From positions 62,001-126,000 of the forward strand of contig NZ_FZOA01000003.1 of assembly GCF_900187985.1 (NCBI RefSeq): a stretch of DNA of 64,000 bases, given 5' to 3'. Made by a program: the position numbers and the translations under genes. The first letter of the stretch is position 1; each line of letters opens with the position of its first letter. Under the pieces are notes generated by a model, which did not search any database, was not told where the DNA came from, and saw nothing but the letters and a program-made list of their open reading frames with translations. Below are positions 29,658-35,673 of this stretch, piece after piece. The DNA comes from Methylobacillus rhizosphaerae (GTDB lineage: Bacteria > Pseudomonadota > Gammaproteobacteria > Burkholderiales > Methylophilaceae).

Positions 29658-30170
29658 TCATTTCACCTGCGCACACTGGAGCAAGGCACGGGCAATGTAT
29701 TTCTTGATGGAGATCACGCTCATCCCCATCTCCGCTGCGATTTCAGGATATGTCATGCCATTGAGCTTATGCATCAGAAACGCCTGCCTGACCTTGACTG
29801 GCAGGCCATCCAGCATCTGGTCGACCACCAGCAGCTTCTCCAGGGTCAGGAGATAATCCTCCGGTGAGGGCGTTGCCATCTCCTGCCCGTACCCCAGGCT
29901 GACCATGGCACTGAGATAGGCATGCTCAATCTCCCGCCTGCGCAGAAGATTCACCATCAGCCCATGAGCAATATGCGTCAGGTAGGCCCTTGGCTCCACA
30001 ATCTGCTGGGCGTTCTCCTGGGACAACACGCGGATAAACGTGTCATGGGTCAAATCTGCCCCATCAGCGCTCGACCCGGTTTTCCTCGATAACCACGACT
30101 GTAACCACGCCCGATGACGCTCGTAAAAATCCTGAATCAACCCCTGCTGTGATAACTGGTTCATCGACAT
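29658..30170 (-). CDS. FecI-type ECF sigma factor
   Basis: RNA polymerase sigma factor of the extracytoplasmic-function class, normally activated by a FecR-type inner-membrane regulator and a signalling TonB receptor. The 170 residues show region 2 at about 10-80 (FYERHRAWLQSWLSRKTG, DLTHDTFIRVLSQ, PRAYLTHIAHGLMVNLLRRR) and region 4 at about 110-165 (LPVKVRQAFLMHKLNGMTYPEIAAEMGMSVISIKKYIARAL split over the helix-turn-helix). The ATG at 30170 has an AAGGTGA ribosome site. It is separated from its presumed partners (receptor and FecR) by a 560-base region with an operator-like array, repeat and terminator, so it has its own promoter. Confidence 0.93.
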   Translation of the reverse strand: MSMNQLSQQGLIQDFYERHRAWLQSWLSRKTGSSADGADLTHDTFIRVLSQENAQQIVEPRAYLTHIAHGLMVNLLRRREIEHAYLSAMVSLGYGQEMATPSPEDYLLTLEKLLVVDQMLDGLPVKVRQAFLMHKLNGMTYPEIAAEMGMSVISIKKYIARALLQCAQVK

Positions 30171-30282
30171 TGCATTTCACCTTGCTTGCGATCATGCAAA
30201 ATCTATTGCAAATTCCATACCAATTTCACAAAAAATCATAACTTATTGATATTAAATAAATTTCACAAATTTAAGCAAAAAA

Positions 30283-30353
30283 TGGCTACAACCACAATTG
30301 GCTGTATACAGCCAGGTGTGGCTATATATAGCCAAGTTGGTTGTATACAGCCA
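30283..30353. promoter_or_regulatory. Phased array of 16-bp palindromes upstream of fecI
   Basis: Three 16-bp palindromes have centres 19-20 bases apart: TGGCTGTATACAGCCA (30299-30314, perfect), TGGCTATATATAGCCA (30319-30334, perfect) and TGGTTGTATACAGCCA (30338-30353, one mismatch). A partial fourth unit, TGGCTACAACCA, is at 30283-30294. Two-helical-turn spacing places all units on one DNA face. The array lies 113-183 bases upstream of the sigma-factor start. It looks like a cooperative operator; the regulator is unknown. Confidence 0.7.
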
Positions 30354-30541
30354 ATTTTAACCAACCAGTGATGAAAGGTTTGGGGGAAGGAATTTAAGAG
30401 CTGATCGGGTTGAATGTGACCGCTTTTTATAGTGATATTTACCCTTCATTTTGTCACTCAGGGCTACAAACCGGAACCTTGTGGTGCAAATAGCGATAAC
30501 AGCCTACTCCTGACTCCAACCCGATGTGTCATTACATCATT

Positions 30542-30624
30542 GCCACGCCGCTTTTCACTTACCAGCGAGTGACTTTCCTTTGCATCGCCAAAGCAAAGTA
30601 AAGGCGACCCCGATTGCCTGGCCG
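30542..30624 (+). repeat. Intergenic repeat, copy 2
   Basis: Nearly identical to 29243-29334, with a 9-base deletion and a few substitutions. It breaks off after GGCCG, where copy 1 continues. The two copies lie in direct orientation on either side of the sigma-factor gene and the palindrome array, about 1.3 kb apart. Confidence 0.8.
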
Positions 30625-30660
30625 AAAAAACGTTCTGGTTTAACCAGCCGCAACCAAGAC

Positions 30661-30686
30661 AAAAAAATGCCGGGATAAACCCGGCA
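30661..30686 (-). terminator. Terminator of the TonB receptor/micro-ORF transcript
   Basis: On the minus strand, a 7-bp stem (TGCCGGG / CCCGGCA with a 5-base loop) is followed by seven T residues. It lies 45 bases after the stop of the 45-residue ORF, with a second hairpin (30702-30720) just before it. Confidence 0.8.
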
Positions 30687-30730
30687 GAGGGAGTGGATGC
30701 ATGCCGGAGATCATCCGGCACGAGAGAAAC

Positions 30731-30868
30731 CTACATCCAGTAAAACCCTGATATCAGCAGACTCAACTCAACTGCCAGCAGCAGGAAAAATAGCGCAGGC
30801 AGCACGATCATCCAGCTTTCGTGCAGCAGCCATTGTTTGAGATAGGTGATGAACCTGAATAATGACAT
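30731..30868 (-). CDS. 45-residue single-span membrane protein coupled to the TonB receptor
   Basis: This short ORF starts at ATG 30868, only four bases after the receptor stop codon. An AGAGGT ribosome site lies inside the receptor's last codons, and a terminator follows, so it looks like the second gene of the same transcript. The peptide has a short amphipathic, basic N-terminus (MSLFRFITYLKQWLLHES) and one strongly hydrophobic segment (about residues 20-43, MIVLPALFFLLLAVELSLLI). It ends in GFYWM and has no signal-peptidase site. I recognise no family. Position and composition suggest an inner-membrane micro-protein assisting the receptor system, perhaps at the TonB-ExbBD or FecR level (inference). 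Confidence 0.65.
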   Translation of the reverse strand: MSLFRFITYLKQWLLHESWMIVLPALFFLLLAVELSLLISGFYWM

Positions 30869-30872
30869 CAGG

Positions 30873-33800
30873 TTACCTCTTGGGATCGAATTCATAATTC
30901 AAGGTAACCCACGCGGCTCTAGGCGCGCCTATACCTAGGAAACTGCTACCTTGCCAATCTGCGCTGTTGTAATTGAACCCACTTGCCCCGATCGCCCCAC
31001 GAATGGATGGGGAAAAAGCATTGAGCCCGAGACGCCCGGCACTGGCATATTCCTTGTCAAACAAGTTGTTGATTTGCAGACCCAAGGTCCATTCCGGTGC
31101 CAGCTTGTAGGTCGTACGCAGATTGAACACGGCATAACCTGCTGTTTTGCCAGAACCAAAATCTGCTCGCTCAACTGAACACCATTGTCCTGTGACTCCA
31201 CTGACAGGATCGGTACAGAATGGCCCTTCAATAGGACGAGCAGCACCTGCACGATGTTTGTTGTTTTCATTACCGCGCACGAAAGCTTCGGAGTGCATGA
31301 TGGCAGTTAAGCCAATACGCCATTTATCCGTAATGTCGTAACCGAAATTGAAATTCAAGTTATGCAAAGGCACACCGGGCATACGATCGCCTGGATGTAC
31401 CGTGATTTGCTGGTACGTGCCTTGCTGTGTGAAGCTATTGATGTCATAGACATTGCCTGCTGTGCTGTTGTGGGGGCTGGCCATGCGCATGACGGATTGG
31501 AAGGTGGCATCAGTCAAGGCATAGTTCACACCCCAACTGGCCTTGCCCCATTTGCCCTTTAATCCTAGCTCCAGGCCTTGGCGACGGGTGTCGCCAATAT
31601 TCTGGAAATAACTGCTAAATGCATTGATGGATACAAAGTAAATGTCATCGGTCAGGTCTGTGCGGTAGGCAGTAGCATTCCACTCGATGTTTTCTGATAA
31701 TCTGCCGCGTGCACCCATTTCGAAAGTGGTGGAACGGACTTGCTTAAGATAGGGATCGCCTGACATGCCGCCAGGCAGGTTACATACTCGCTGTTCGACA
31801 ATGGAACGAGGGCGGCCATCCGACATGGGAGTAGGGTCATAAGCACAGCCTAGCTCAATGACGCTAGGCGTTCTGGCGCCACGCCCCACGCTGGCATAGA
31901 CATTCAAATCTTCTTGGGCCTGCCAGGTGAAACCGATAGATGGGTTGAATGAACGGTATTTAAAGCGCTCTGTTTCCGGAGCCAATAGGTTTGCGATGTT
32001 GTTTCCGAACGGATCTGTGGGGAAAGTGCTGGGATCGAACGGCAGGATGGCGTGATCAAGACCATGTGGACATTCAGTGTTGGGATCAATGGTGCCGTCG
32101 CTATTATTGTCTGTACAAAGTTGCGCTAACTGAAGGTAGTTGAGAATTGTGTTAACGTCGGTAAATGATGACAGTTTTGATACCGCCAACTGGTTGTTTA
32201 CATAGGTGCGGTTGTAACGGGCTGATGCGGTGATGCTGAGTGTCTTGGTTGGCGTCCAGGTTTCGCTCAAATAAACGCTTTTGGTAAGGCCATCTCCCTT
32301 GAAATCATTTAACCCTTGTGCGCGTTCTGGGGCATTGGCGTAATATTCCCAGCCTAACAAGTCCGGTGCGACATAGCCATGGCGGTTTGCATCCAGCAGA
32401 CCAAGGTACTGTTTGCTGACATACGTAGCATCTGCCTTGTCGATGGAAGCGCCTACCATGAACTTGTGCTCGTCCAAGTTCCAGTTAAGTTGTAATGATG
32501 CTCCTTTGCCTAGTTGATCAATCTGAGTATCATTGAAAATCGCAGTGGGCGTACCTTCTATGTATCCAGTGTCAAGTAAACCTGCCCCTCCACCATACTT
32601 GCCGTCACGGAAGATTCCATTGTAATTTCCATTTTCATCAAGTACTAATGGGCCAATAGTTGGAATGTAAGATAAGCCGCCGACTGCACCAACGGCATTT
32701 GCGACATTCCCGTAATTAATTGGCAGTAGTAACTCCCAATAGTCATGAAAGAAGCCAGCATCATCCGTATAAGTGGCTATAACACCTGACTGTCCCTGGG
32801 AGCCTGTCACATCATATATGTAACTAGTCTGACCGCTCCCCGGATGTGTGGTGTTGGAGCTGAGGCGGGTGGGATCGGCTTCAGAAACTAACGTGCCATA
32901 GTTGGCAATCGCATATTTCACAATGTTTTCGAATTCGACGGTCGTTGGGGCATTAAATACACCAGCAATCGTTGAGGGTTGAGTGAAATCGTCGAAGTCC
33001 TTACGAGGATCGTATGTCCAATTCCATACTTGTGTGCTCGAGCCGTCTGCAGCGGTCACTTGCGCCTGCTGAGCAATTGCCTGAGTGGTGAAATTGGTAC
33101 CATATGCCAGATTGTTAATATCGAATCCGGGTTCTCCATATGCAATTCCATTTACATCCAGAGCTCGGCCTGACGCATCTGCCGCAACGTTGTAAGCGTA
33201 GTCGTTGTAGTCTGGCCGCCCGTCCCGATTAATATCTGGATAGCCATACAGCAATTGCTGGTTAGGGTCTTTGGTAGTTGCCCTATTAGGGCGCCCATCT
33301 GTGCCACCGAAATTCTCATTGATATCCGACGTACTGGATTTGCGCTTGCTCTTACGGTTATATATTTGTCCAGTGATATTGAAGGTGTCGGTTACATCCC
33401 AGATACCTGATAATTGAAATTGCAACAGATTGTTCCTGCTCTCATCAGGAGATGTGTAGACCTGCTTGGGGTTCTGGTCGACCATCTGTTGGGGTAGCAG
33501 GCCATTGCCTGTCAGCTTGTTGCCGGCATACAGCACAGATAGTCCAAGCCGGGCACGTTCACTTTGCCATTCAGCCTTACCAAAGACCTGATTAACCCGG
33601 CTTGGAGAGTCATCGCGCCAACCATCTTCCAGGAAGAAATTACCTGCTAGAAATCCGGCAACTACCCCATTGTTCCAGCCAGCTGAAGCTTGCAGCTGTT
33701 TACGCCCGAATGACCCTGTCAGTACCTGGGCATCGACGCCAGGGTTATCAAAGCCACTCTTTGTCTTCATCGTTAATGCACCACCCAGCGTACCCAACCC

Positions 33801-34604
33801 ATAAATAGGATTTGATCCAGGCACTAAATCCAGGCTCGACAAGGCATTCATAGGTAACATGTCCCAGTTGACGACATCGCCGAATGGTTCATTGACACGA
33901 ATGCCATCAAGGAACACTGATATCCCTTGTGCAGTACCTAACTGAGGAGAAGCTGCAAACCCCCGATATTGCAAATCCATCTGAAATGGGTTGCTCTGGT
34001 AATCATTAACAGTGACCGATTGAAATTTGGAGTTCAGCAGGTCAGTCAGACTTAAAGATTGTGCTTCCTTGATTTCTTTTGCAGTCAGGCTTTGTACATT
34101 GCCCGGAATTTCTTCTTTGGTCAGTCCCAATCCAGGTAAGGGCCCTACCTCATAGAAGCGTTTGGCCCTTACTTCAACAGAGTCCACTTTAAATTTTAGA
34201 TTGGACTGCTCACCGGGAAGCTTGTCATGTTCCTGTACTGTTGCACGTTGCAGCTGATAACGCCCGCCCTCTCCTTGCACTATTTCCAGGCCAGTGCCTT
34301 TCAGCAGTTCGCTAAAGCCTTGCATGACGCCATAGTTGCCTTTGAGGCCTGTGGTTTTTTTCTGCAGGGTCAGCCCTGAATCAAATGACAGTAATACACC
34401 GGCATTGCCTGCATACAGGGTCAATGCCTGATCGAGATCGCCTGGCGGGATGTTATAGGTTTGCGTGGGGATACTTGTGTTCAGTGGTTCTGCAGCAAGC
34501 GGCAATGTTGCTGTGGAAAACAGTAGCATCAGCAGTGCGCTGATGGGTTTTCTGCTATGACGCTCCCCGGTGTTTTTGCAAATGGATGCAACGTTCCCAG
34601 CCAT
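30873..34604 (-). CDS. Signal-transducing TonB-dependent receptor with EF-hand-like loops
   Basis: This 1243-residue outer-membrane transporter is unusually long. It has a signal peptide ending near residue 38 (PLAAEP). An STN signalling domain at about 45-120 (IPPGDLDQALTLYAGNAGVLLSF) is expected to contact FecR. A plug domain at about 140-285 includes YRGFAASPQ and GTLGGALTMKT. The barrel ends in NYEFDPKR. A large insertion at about 420-700 lies in extracellular loops. Two segments resemble calcium/lanthanide-binding EF-hand loops: DINRDGRPDYND (residues 457-468, bases 33201-33236) and CTDNNSDGTIDPNTEC (830-845, bases 32070-32117), the latter bracketed by two cysteines. Other cysteine pairs lie near 920/941 and 1130/1142. 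The ribosome site is AAGGGAGAG. The substrate is unknown; no Fur box was evident near it. Confidence 0.9.
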   Translation of the reverse strand: MAGNVASICKNTGERHSRKPISALLMLLFSTATLPLAAEPLNTSIPTQTYNIPPGDLDQALTLYAGNAGVLLSFDSGLTLQKKTTGLKGNYGVMQGFSELLKGTGLEIVQGEGGRYQLQRATVQEHDKLPGEQSNLKFKVDSVEVRAKRFYEVGPLPGLGLTKEEIPGNVQSLTAKEIKEAQSLSLTDLLNSKFQSVTVNDYQSNPFQMDLQYRGFAASPQLGTAQGISVFLDGIRVNEPFGDVVNWDMLPMNALSSLDLVPGSNPIYGLGTLGGALTMKTKSGFDNPGVDAQVLTGSFGRKQLQASAGWNNGVVAGFLAGNFFLEDGWRDDSPSRVNQVFGKAEWQSERARLGLSVLYAGNKLTGNGLLPQQMVDQNPKQVYTSPDESRNNLLQFQLSGIWDVTDTFNITGQIYNRKSKRKSSTSDINENFGGTDGRPNRATTKDPNQQLLYGYPDINRDGRPDYNDYAYNVAADASGRALDVNGIAYGEPGFDINNLAYGTNFTTQAIAQQAQVTAADGSSTQVWNWTYDPRKDFDDFTQPSTIAGVFNAPTTVEFENIVKYAIANYGTLVSEADPTRLSSNTTHPGSGQTSYIYDVTGSQGQSGVIATYTDDAGFFHDYWELLLPINYGNVANAVGAVGGLSYIPTIGPLVLDENGNYNGIFRDGKYGGGAGLLDTGYIEGTPTAIFNDTQIDQLGKGASLQLNWNLDEHKFMVGASIDKADATYVSKQYLGLLDANRHGYVAPDLLGWEYYANAPERAQGLNDFKGDGLTKSVYLSETWTPTKTLSITASARYNRTYVNNQLAVSKLSSFTDVNTILNYLQLAQLCTDNNSDGTIDPNTECPHGLDHAILPFDPSTFPTDPFGNNIANLLAPETERFKYRSFNPSIGFTWQAQEDLNVYASVGRGARTPSVIELGCAYDPTPMSDGRPRSIVEQRVCNLPGGMSGDPYLKQVRSTTFEMGARGRLSENIEWNATAYRTDLTDDIYFVSINAFSSYFQNIGDTRRQGLELGLKGKWGKASWGVNYALTDATFQSVMRMASPHNSTAGNVYDINSFTQQGTYQQITVHPGDRMPGVPLHNLNFNFGYDITDKWRIGLTAIMHSEAFVRGNENNKHRAGAARPIEGPFCTDPVSGVTGQWCSVERADFGSGKTAGYAVFNLRTTYKLAPEWTLGLQINNLFDKEYASAGRLGLNAFSPSIRGAIGASGFNYNSADWQGSSFLGIGAPRAAWVTLNYEFDPKR

Positions 34605-34663
34605 GAATCTCTCCCTTGAGTTTATGTTTTATGCTGGATACGCCAATTGAAGTGGCTGAAAGG

Positions 34664-34689
34664 TATAAAAAAATTTCAGTTTTTTTATA
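34664..34689. promoter_or_regulatory. A/T inverted repeat between the FecR and receptor genes
   Basis: A perfect 10-bp inverted repeat (TATAAAAAAA / TTTTTTTATA, 6-base centre) lies in the 133-base gap between the FecR-type gene and the receptor. It could be a weak terminator after the FecR gene or part of the receptor's ECF promoter region. I could not identify a certain FecI-type promoter. Confidence 0.4.
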
Positions 34690-34737
34690 TTTACCTCTCA
34701 AGTTATTGTTTGTTATGTGTTTATATCACTGCCATTT

Positions 34738-35673
34738 TTATGCTGGCCTCAATGTCACCCAGTAGCGGGTAAAGAATTCAAGGCGCAGCCGGTAGGTATC
34801 CTGCAGGCTGGACAAGATGGCATCGAGGTCATTGACCGGGAAAGCGCCTGATACTTTGAGGTCTGCAATGGCGGGGTCGCAGCGTAATACGCCGCTGTGA
34901 TAGCGGCCAAGCTCGGTCAGAAAATCCTGTAATGACATGTCGTTGGCGCTGAGGATGCCTTTGACCCAGAGATCGGCCCCAAGCGGCAGAGGCTTGATAT
35001 CAGTGACATGATCCGCGTCAAACCTGGCAGTCTGGTTGGCCTGTATCAGCTCTTCGCCGCCATGGGCTGGCGCCAGGCTGACGGCATGTTCGAATACATT
35101 GACGCTGATATGGCTGCCATGGTCGCGGACGCTGAAGCGCGTGCCCATGGCGGTGATCATGCCGTGACGGGTCTTGACCTGGAATGGCGCGGAGATGCCT
35201 GCCGGATGCCCGGTTTGCACCATGATCTCACCCTTGATCAGCACCACGATGCGTTGCGTGTCGTTATAGATGGTATCAATGGCGGTACCGGTGTTGAGCA
35301 CGATGATGGTGTCATCCGGCATGGTCCAGCTACGCTGTTCGCCCTTGCCTGTGGTGTAGTCGGCCAGCATGCCCTGCCATGGCTGCTCGCGATACATCAT
35401 GGCGCCAGTGCCACCGATCAATGCTACTACGCCCAGTTTCTTAAGTACCTGGCGGCGGCTGGCGCGCTGAGCACGTTTTAATAACACGGCCTGCCCGAGT
35501 TCGGGGTTAAGGCCAGAGAATGATATATCCACTTGTTCAATGGCATGCCAGGCATTGCGGTGCTGGCTTGATGCTTCCAGCCAGCGTTGCAGCTCCTGTC
35601 TGTCCTGCTCTGTCACGGCAGGGTCGTGCAGGCGGATGTACCATTCAGTGGCAGTTTTCAGGATGTCGGACAT
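34738..35673 (-). CDS. FecR-type transmembrane sigma-factor regulator
   Basis: Inner-membrane protein that relays the signal from the receptor's STN domain to the ECF sigma factor. In 311 residues, the cytosolic DUF4880 domain is at about 8-55 (ATEWYIRLHDPAVTEQDRQELQRWL in two halves). A transmembrane helix follows at about 75-93 (LKKLGVVALIGGTGAMM). The periplasmic FecR domain is at about 105-200 (TGKGEQRSWTMPDDTIIVLNT, TRHGMITAMGTRFSVR). The C-terminal STN-contact region is at about 235-311. It is the first gene of the cluster and is transcribed towards the receptor. The sigma-factor gene is at the other end, not immediately upstream as in fecIRA. Confidence 0.93.
   Translation of the reverse strand: MSDILKTATEWYIRLHDPAVTEQDRQELQRWLEASSQHRNAWHAIEQVDISFSGLNPELGQAVLLKRAQRASRRQVLKKLGVVALIGGTGAMMYREQPWQGMLADYTTGKGEQRSWTMPDDTIIVLNTGTAIDTIYNDTQRIVVLIKGEIMVQTGHPAGISAPFQVKTRHGMITAMGTRFSVRDHGSHISVNVFEHAVSLAPAHGGEELIQANQTARFDADHVTDIKPLPLGADLWVKGILSANDMSLQDFLTELGRYHSGVLRCDPAIADLKVSGAFPVNDLDAILSSLQDTYRLRLEFFTRYWVTLRPA

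Follow-up and report, generated by a model that had tools for sequence, protein, structure and literature searches.

Introduction

Among the closest described systems are two lanthanide receptors of methylotrophs. According to passages of PMC7391723, LutH of Methylorubrum extorquens is required for La-dependent growth when mxaF is missing, and La3+ represses the lutH promoter. Passages of PMC12482762 describe LanA of Methylotuvimicrobium buryatense as a lanthanide receptor found mainly in Methylococcaceae, with Methylotenera-related transcripts, and, among the lanthanide transporters of methanotrophs, count only LanA and a LutH homologue as characterised. Here we analysed 64,000 nucleotides of Methylobacillus rhizosphaerae, of the family Methylophilaceae (contig NZ_FZOA01000003.1, positions 62,001 to 126,000; hereafter the window), which encode a very large TonB-dependent receptor with fecR- and fecI-like genes on its two sides. 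With about even confidence, we read this protein as a cell-surface-signalling importer of the LutH family that takes up a lanthanide, probably chelated, as part of a sigma-54 regulon; we infer the substrate, the metal and the regulator. Literature searches, which covered the titles and abstract openings of the papers listed and few subscription journals, found no description of this receptor or regulon. An earlier note on this DNA had proposed a signalling receptor with two EF-hand-like loops as a candidate lanthanide or calcium-dependent importer. Its open reading frame of 1243 residues at 30873-34604 is confirmed, and we add the strand: the gene reads from 34604 to 30873 on the minus strand.

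Results

The receptor falls within a LutH-family branch

The window receptor, its large relatives, a smaller receptor on contig C16 of the same genome and lut-linked receptors come together in a tree of 52 rows as a 46-row LutH-family branch with a Shimodaira-Hasegawa-like approximate likelihood ratio test (SH-aLRT) support of 99. The rows of this tree and of the 72-row tree below were selected by similarity, and the 52-row tree shows how the sampled receptors are related but does not survey the family in full. (C-numbers denote contigs of the window organism's own genome, L-numbers fetched genomic stretches.) This branch also takes in receptors whose neighbours are lut ABC genes, a lanM-like gene or XoxF, and the large receptors form their own sub-branch inside it. 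The phylogeny suggested in the earlier note, run here in part, thus places the protein among the LutH-family receptors that stand in lut clusters, and six other receptors of the own genome lie outside the branch. At the position of the acidic motif (Table 1), whose D427 is invariant in a 15-row alignment, LutH-family members carry acidic motifs of the [VL]-[DN]-G-[ND] type.

The own genome (2.37 Mb) holds three further large receptors among the best matches to the window receptor, with open frames of 1198, 1204 and 1329 amino acids (aa), and the fourth match is the LutH-type receptor on C16, with an open frame of 781 aa (773 from its start). Large-receptor matches at E 1e-100 or better occur in 43 of the 187 family genomes; three candidates were scored per genome, and the copy numbers are therefore lower bounds. 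Members of the family can live without large receptors, because the listed ones with small genomes have no match. Relatives of the C16 receptor were found in 29 of the 398 genomes of a phylum sample. Among the best 80 of 576 relatives, ranked by similarity to the window protein, 57 of the 76 named ones bear Methylo- or Methyli- names and 19 do not, and there is no Methylotuvimicrobium record.

The neighbours of LutH-like receptors were examined in 38 stretches by BLAST with L163 and other queries. Neighbour genes in L163 score above the curated cut-offs for a pyrroloquinoline quinone (PQQ)-linked ABC system (TIGR03861, 03863, 03864 and 03866), as does one neighbour gene in L169 (TIGR03863), and 12 of the 38 stretches hold all four components, namely the binding protein, propeller, ATPase and permease. 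This gene set matches the M. extorquens lut cluster as it is tabulated in PMC7391723. At least one of the full ABC set, a PQQ dehydrogenase, pqqE or a lanM-like small protein is present in 21 of the 38. In three (L170, L214 and L230), a small protein with three D-x-D-x-D-G loops adjoins the receptor; from these loops, the small protein is probably lanmodulin. Among 297 Rhizobiales genomes, a LutH-like receptor occurs in 45, all of them within the 111 that have a PQQ alcohol dehydrogenase (Fisher 6e-23, uncorrected for kinship).

A shared putative operator and sigma-54 element link the signalling genes to the LutH-type receptor

Upstream of the window fecI lie three palindromes of the form GGYTRTATAYARCC (30300-30352). 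Four 16-bp palindromes with at most three mismatches were found in the 64-kb window against 0.42 expected, and three of the four are these. Exact sites number 15 in the own genome and make up five triples, each at a cluster of LutH-family receptors: one at the window fecI, one at the cluster of each of the other three large receptors, and one immediately in front of the C16 receptor. When a single mismatch is tolerated, the own genome has 20 forward sites and the reversed control 6. Tandem sites (two with a short gap) are present in 31 of the 187 family genomes, with 0 in every row of the reversed control, and 30 tandem loci precede 22 C16-type receptors, three fecI genes (one in the own genome) and five beta-propeller genes. 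In records of the genus Methylophilus the palindrome is often altered, for example to GGCTGATTACAACC. The 20 further receptors drawn from the best 80 of 576 (three of them from Methylophilaceae, L308-L310) have no operator pair upstream; one isolated palindrome with two mismatches (L309) and one sigma-54-like element (L299) were seen among them. XoxF promoters were also considered as members of the regulon and rejected, with no operator pair (at most two mismatches) at the four PQQ-dehydrogenase loci of the own genome; L326 has two single, distant partial matches.

Between the palindromes and the window fecI, a GG-N10-GC element of the sigma-54 promoter type is predicted. When scored from the palindromes towards the gene at a threshold of at least 9 of 12, such an element is found at four of the five own operators, compared with 8% of 2000 random stretches, at 17 of the 22 C16-type genes elsewhere (two more score 8) and at both other fecI genes. 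In the stretches fetched around large receptors, it precedes 41 of 49 fecI-like genes (the window's excluded) and 15% of 351 other genes, which served as controls. Of the same 49, 23 are preceded by a palindrome with no more than one mismatch, versus 1.7% of the controls.

A gene for an NtrC-type response regulator directly follows the C16-type receptor in the own genome and in five others (L177, L179-L182). At E 1e-120, NtrC-like genes match in 103 of the 187 family genomes, that is, in all 43 large-receptor genomes versus 60 of the 144 others, and in 29 of the 31 operator genomes, the two exceptions being 79% and 74% complete. In Methyloversatilis (L286) and a marine metagenome-assembled genome (L299), a gene with 56-57% identity stands no more than 5 kb from receptors of 985 and 979 aa, respectively. 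The NtrC-like regulator may bind the palindromes.

Secreted beta-propeller genes lie behind tandem palindromes without a sigma-54 site in several stretches (L178:8498-9565, L097, L099, L100, L106 and L116); the L178 protein is TIGR03866-like, below the cut-off.

Lanthanide and PQQ context of the own genome

The own genome encodes three dehydrogenases with a DYD motif and one with DFA, which we take to be XoxF-type and MxaF-like, respectively. From its three XoxF-type enzymes, lanthanide-dependent growth of the window organism is expected. A control by lanthanide shortage is favoured because fecI and the LutH-type gene share upstream sites and a sigma-54 element and because XoxF-type dehydrogenases are present.

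Three arrangements elsewhere in the genome are recorded here. On contig C12 (L040:10569-14540), a 728-aa calcium-repeat protein of the repeats-in-toxin (RTX) type and a type I secretion ATPase adjoin a palindrome-bearing large receptor, an arrangement that recalls a secreted carrier protein with its receptor. On contig C7 (L171:8404-14233), a PqqU-like receptor lies near a quinoprotein-associated SoxYZ-like carrier, a quinoprotein relay metallohydrolase and a PQQ-linked beta-propeller. Also on C7 (L173:8558-11607) are genes that by eye are DoxX-like, DUF692-like and sigma/anti-sigma-like, presumably akin to a bufferin-type operon.

Two conserved metal-binding-type loops

The earlier note had pointed to two D-x-N/D-x-D-G motifs, the second between cysteines, and both were located at its positions (loops 1 and 2, Table 1). 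In 5000 shuffles of the protein, at least one motif of the form D-x-[DN]-x-[DNS]-G-x-x-[DE] arises in 1.9% and two in 0.02%. Their conservation was followed in a 24-row receptor clade, picked from the BLAST list with the motif already known; in the 72-row tree built without both inserts, exactly the same 24 rows form one branch (SH-aLRT 100). In loop 1, residues 457, 461, 462 and 465 are identical and 459 is D or N in all 24 rows, which gives D/N at ligand positions 1, 3, 5 and 9 and G at position 6 throughout; position 12 (aa 468) is D/N in only 54%. In loop 2, C830, D832, G837 and C845 are identical and 834 and 836 are D/N/E in all 24 rows, while D/N/E occurs at position 9 (aa 840) in 83% and at position 12 (aa 843) in 38%, with the adjoining E844 in 96%. 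The strict loop-1 label applies to 33 of the 72 rows and requires five changes on the insert-free tree; L303 carries DANRDGIQDYGL, which the strict pattern misses. In other large paralogues, N-x-x-G-x-P-D-Y stands where loop 1 would be, and loop 2 is mostly replaced by a short C..C.

The receptor was modelled by AlphaFold2 over aa 131-1243 with 35 sequences, with modest confidence (mean predicted local distance difference test, pLDDT, 75.8; the other four models 62.9-67.0). From the strand count in this model, both loops are probably extracellular. No helix of four or more residues stands beside loop 1 or loop 2 in the model, so canonical EF-hands, which are helix-loop-helix structures, were rejected; the model supports EF-hand-like loops, not EF-hands.

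The missing helices also suit another explanation, which overlaps with ours and to which we give about even odds: the receptor may import a lanthanide or something else, with the loops serving only to stiffen long extracellular loops through bound Ca2+, presumably as in thrombospondin type-3 or dockerin-like loops. It is further consistent with six methanotroph relatives that carry two loops head to tail, such as DANKDGIPDYGL-DRNFDGVIDAGT (L284, L289, L290, L291, L295 and L298), and with the three other large receptors of the own genome, which share the palindromes and manage without loop 1; because of these paralogues, the loops are not what unites the group. Against a purely structural role for Ca2+ one may set that the ligand positions of loop 1 stay fixed within an insert (aa 436-649) that averages 39% identity across the 24 rows, a pattern compatible with any bound metal. 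The loops look like the generic Ca2+/Ln3+ type, which by itself does not separate the two ions. As a side observation, the six tandem-loop methanotroph receptors are about 1000-1040 aa long and are candidates for LanA or its relatives.

Signalling layout and the question of iron

The word "signalling" in the earlier note was well chosen. Residues 50-121 match the FecA signalling domain (1zzv, E 6.6e-11), with the Pfam STN match below its cut-off, and a FecR-like gene upstream and a FecI-like gene downstream complete a FecA-type layout, with equivalog scores below cut-off (Table 1). This is the classic layout for iron chelates and therefore raises a second explanation, that the protein works like FecA and transduces the signal of a ferric siderophore or some other iron complex, its loops being structural Ca2+ sites and its sigma-54 control a response to some other stress. 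Several receptor copies per genome would suit xenosiderophore uptake, and the generic siderophore-receptor model TIGR01783 gives a weak match (104.8 bits versus a cut-off of 223.5). Genes for fecI are usually under Fur. Scored against a 19-bp Fur consensus that we take to be the standard one, the best match upstream of the window fecI reaches 11/19, within the range of shuffles of that stretch, and those upstream of fecR and of the receptor only 9-10/19, in agreement with the earlier note, which had seen no obvious Fur box; a Fur-controlled sigma gene was accordingly rejected. The palindromes held in common with the LutH-family receptor and the grouping apart from the six other receptors of the genome also argue against iron, and we regard this explanation as rather unlikely.

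A third explanation, that PQQ or another quinone cofactor is imported instead of a metal, is highly improbable: PqqU is the best solved fold match (9c4o, E 5.2e-38, 14% identity in the match) and pqqE lies within the stretches of the LutH-type relatives L157, L158, L163 and L219, but membership of PqqU is ruled out by 83.5 bits against a cut-off of 1200 for NF041535 and by the separate PqqU-like receptor on C7 (594 bits over its full length, below the PqqU cut-off), which lies outside the 46-row branch.

Features of the locus

The remaining neighbours of the receptor are helicases and a pseudouridine synthase. The gene order at 29658-35673 is fecR-receptor-fecI, and many relatives have fecI-fecR-receptor. 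The window FecI is 78-79% identical to FecIs adjoining receptors outside the loop-1 clade in Methylobacillus gramineus and Methylobacillus caricis.

Table 1. Annotated features of the receptor locus, in window positions.
Feature	Positions	Strand	Details
FecI-like ECF (extracytoplasmic function) sigma factor	29658..30170	-	170 aa; Pfam Sigma70_r2 and r4_2; NF041727 165 bits, below cut-off 260
Sigma-54 -24/-12 promoter element TGGTATGGAATTTGCA, upstream of fecI	30207..30222	-	one of two strict matches in the 64-kb window
Palindrome 1, GGCTGTATACAGCC, putative upstream activator site	30300..30313	.	palindrome search
Palindrome 2, GGCTATATATAGCC	30320..30333	.	palindrome search
Palindrome 3, GGTTGTATACAGCC	30339..30352	.	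palindrome search
TonB-dependent receptor, signal-transducing, LutH-related large-receptor family	30873..34604	-	1243 aa; open reading frame, Pfam, trees
Part of beta-barrel, aa 677-1181	31062..32576	-	Pfam PF00593 and model
EF-hand-like loop 2, CTDNNSDGTIDPNTEC, bracketed by two cysteines, aa 830-845	32070..32117	-	inside 67-aa loop between modelled strands 789-809 and 877-886
EF-hand-like loop 1, DINRDGRPDYND, aa 457-468	33201..33236	-	inside 259-aa loop between modelled strands aa 408-428 and 688-709
Acidic motif SSTSDINENF, aa 423-432	33309..33338	-	alignments
Plug domain, aa 163-276	33777..34118	-	Pfam PF07715
STN signalling domain, aa 72-120	34245..34391	-	Pfam PF07660 23.1 bits, below cut-off 28.4
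FecR-like anti-sigma regulator	34738..35673	-	311 aa; Pfam PF04773 7.9e-20; NF007296 254.9 bits, below cut-off 385

Discussion

How might a chelated lanthanide be sensed and imported by the window receptor? Under lanthanide shortage, an NtrC-family activator, probably the one encoded beside the LutH-type receptor, would bind the palindromes and switch on the genes for the LutH-type receptor and FecI. A lanthanide complex, perhaps with a chelator from another microbe, would bind the large receptor, and the signal would pass from the STN domain to FecR and on to FecI, which would raise production of the matching receptor. Uptake into the periplasm would be powered by TonB and would supply XoxF. 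The two loops may bind Ca2+ or Ln3+ at the cell surface and either shape the long loops or join in substrate capture, and each large receptor would sense its own lanthanide chelate. The lanthanide importer of the earlier note is thus supported by the LutH-family branch and the shared operator; the loops on which that note had relied lend no such support, being generic and, for loop 1, absent from the three large paralogues.

Several observations weigh against the proposed lanthanide regulon. The receptor locus is not a lut cluster, with no lut ABC genes or lanM beside the receptor, and no TIGR03863 lut binding protein was found in the own genome, so that lanthanide uptake, if real, would serve the periplasm or cross the inner membrane by another route; 17 of the 38 LutH-like stretches show none of the full lut ABC set, PQQ dehydrogenase, pqqE or lanM-like neighbour. 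Of the 43 large-receptor genomes, no more than 15 have the exact tandem operator, which is also present in 16 genomes without a large receptor, and eight methanotroph relatives have no operator upstream of the receptor. The sigma-54 site is missing before the fecI of the own cluster on C8, at three of the 22 LutH-type genes elsewhere and at all five beta-propeller genes. The sigma-54 contact loop of the presumed activator reads GAFTSA in the own genome, not GAFTGA, and GAFTSA, GAFTNA, GAFTGA or GAYTGA elsewhere. To these points may be added the paralogues without loop 1 and the variable position 12 of both loops. Long branches meet in both similarity-selected trees, and all co-occurrence counts are uncorrected for kinship or genome size.

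A wider proposal, which we put forward only tentatively and consider doubtful, is that Methylophilaceae possess a lanthanide-starvation regulon, run by sigma-54 and an NtrC-family activator, over a LutH-type receptor and LutH-derived large receptors, each with its own FecI and FecR, for different chelates, and that the EF-hand-like loops of one branch, of a type shared with methanotrophs, take up Ln3+ directly. The system bears on how scarce rare earths are sensed and imported by methylotrophs. With several copies of a signalling receptor and a DNA switch of its own, the branch supplies genes, promoters and reporters for immediate tests in cultured strains of Methylobacillus and Methylophilus. 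Its loops are a candidate surface site for rare-earth capture, which is of biotechnological interest.

Comparison with known systems

LutH of M. extorquens shares a branch with the window receptor, by way of the lanM-linked receptors taken for LutH, and these carry an acidic motif in the same loop, but they are only 28-31% identical to the window receptor over about 780 columns. Beyond LutH, the window receptor has the STN domain, FecR and FecI, the loops of 259 and 67 aa and the EF-hand-like motifs, and it has no adjoining lut genes. As for LanA, the tandem-loop methanotroph relatives of the window receptor come from the family in which it is mainly reported, Methylococcaceae. FecA-type receptors have the layout of STN, FecR and ECF sigma factor in common with the window locus; unlike them, the locus has no Fur box, its fecI lies behind palindromes and a sigma-54 promoter, and its genes follow the order given above. 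PqqU (YncD) has the nearest solved fold, but at low identity and with a separate PqqU-like receptor in the same genome. Lanmodulin likewise has 12-residue loops of the form D-x-[DN]-x-D-G-x-x-D. In contrast to lanmodulin, the window loops have no conserved position 12 and no helix-loop-helix in the model, and they lack the position-2 proline of the lanM-like loops in L214 and L230 (DPDxDGT).

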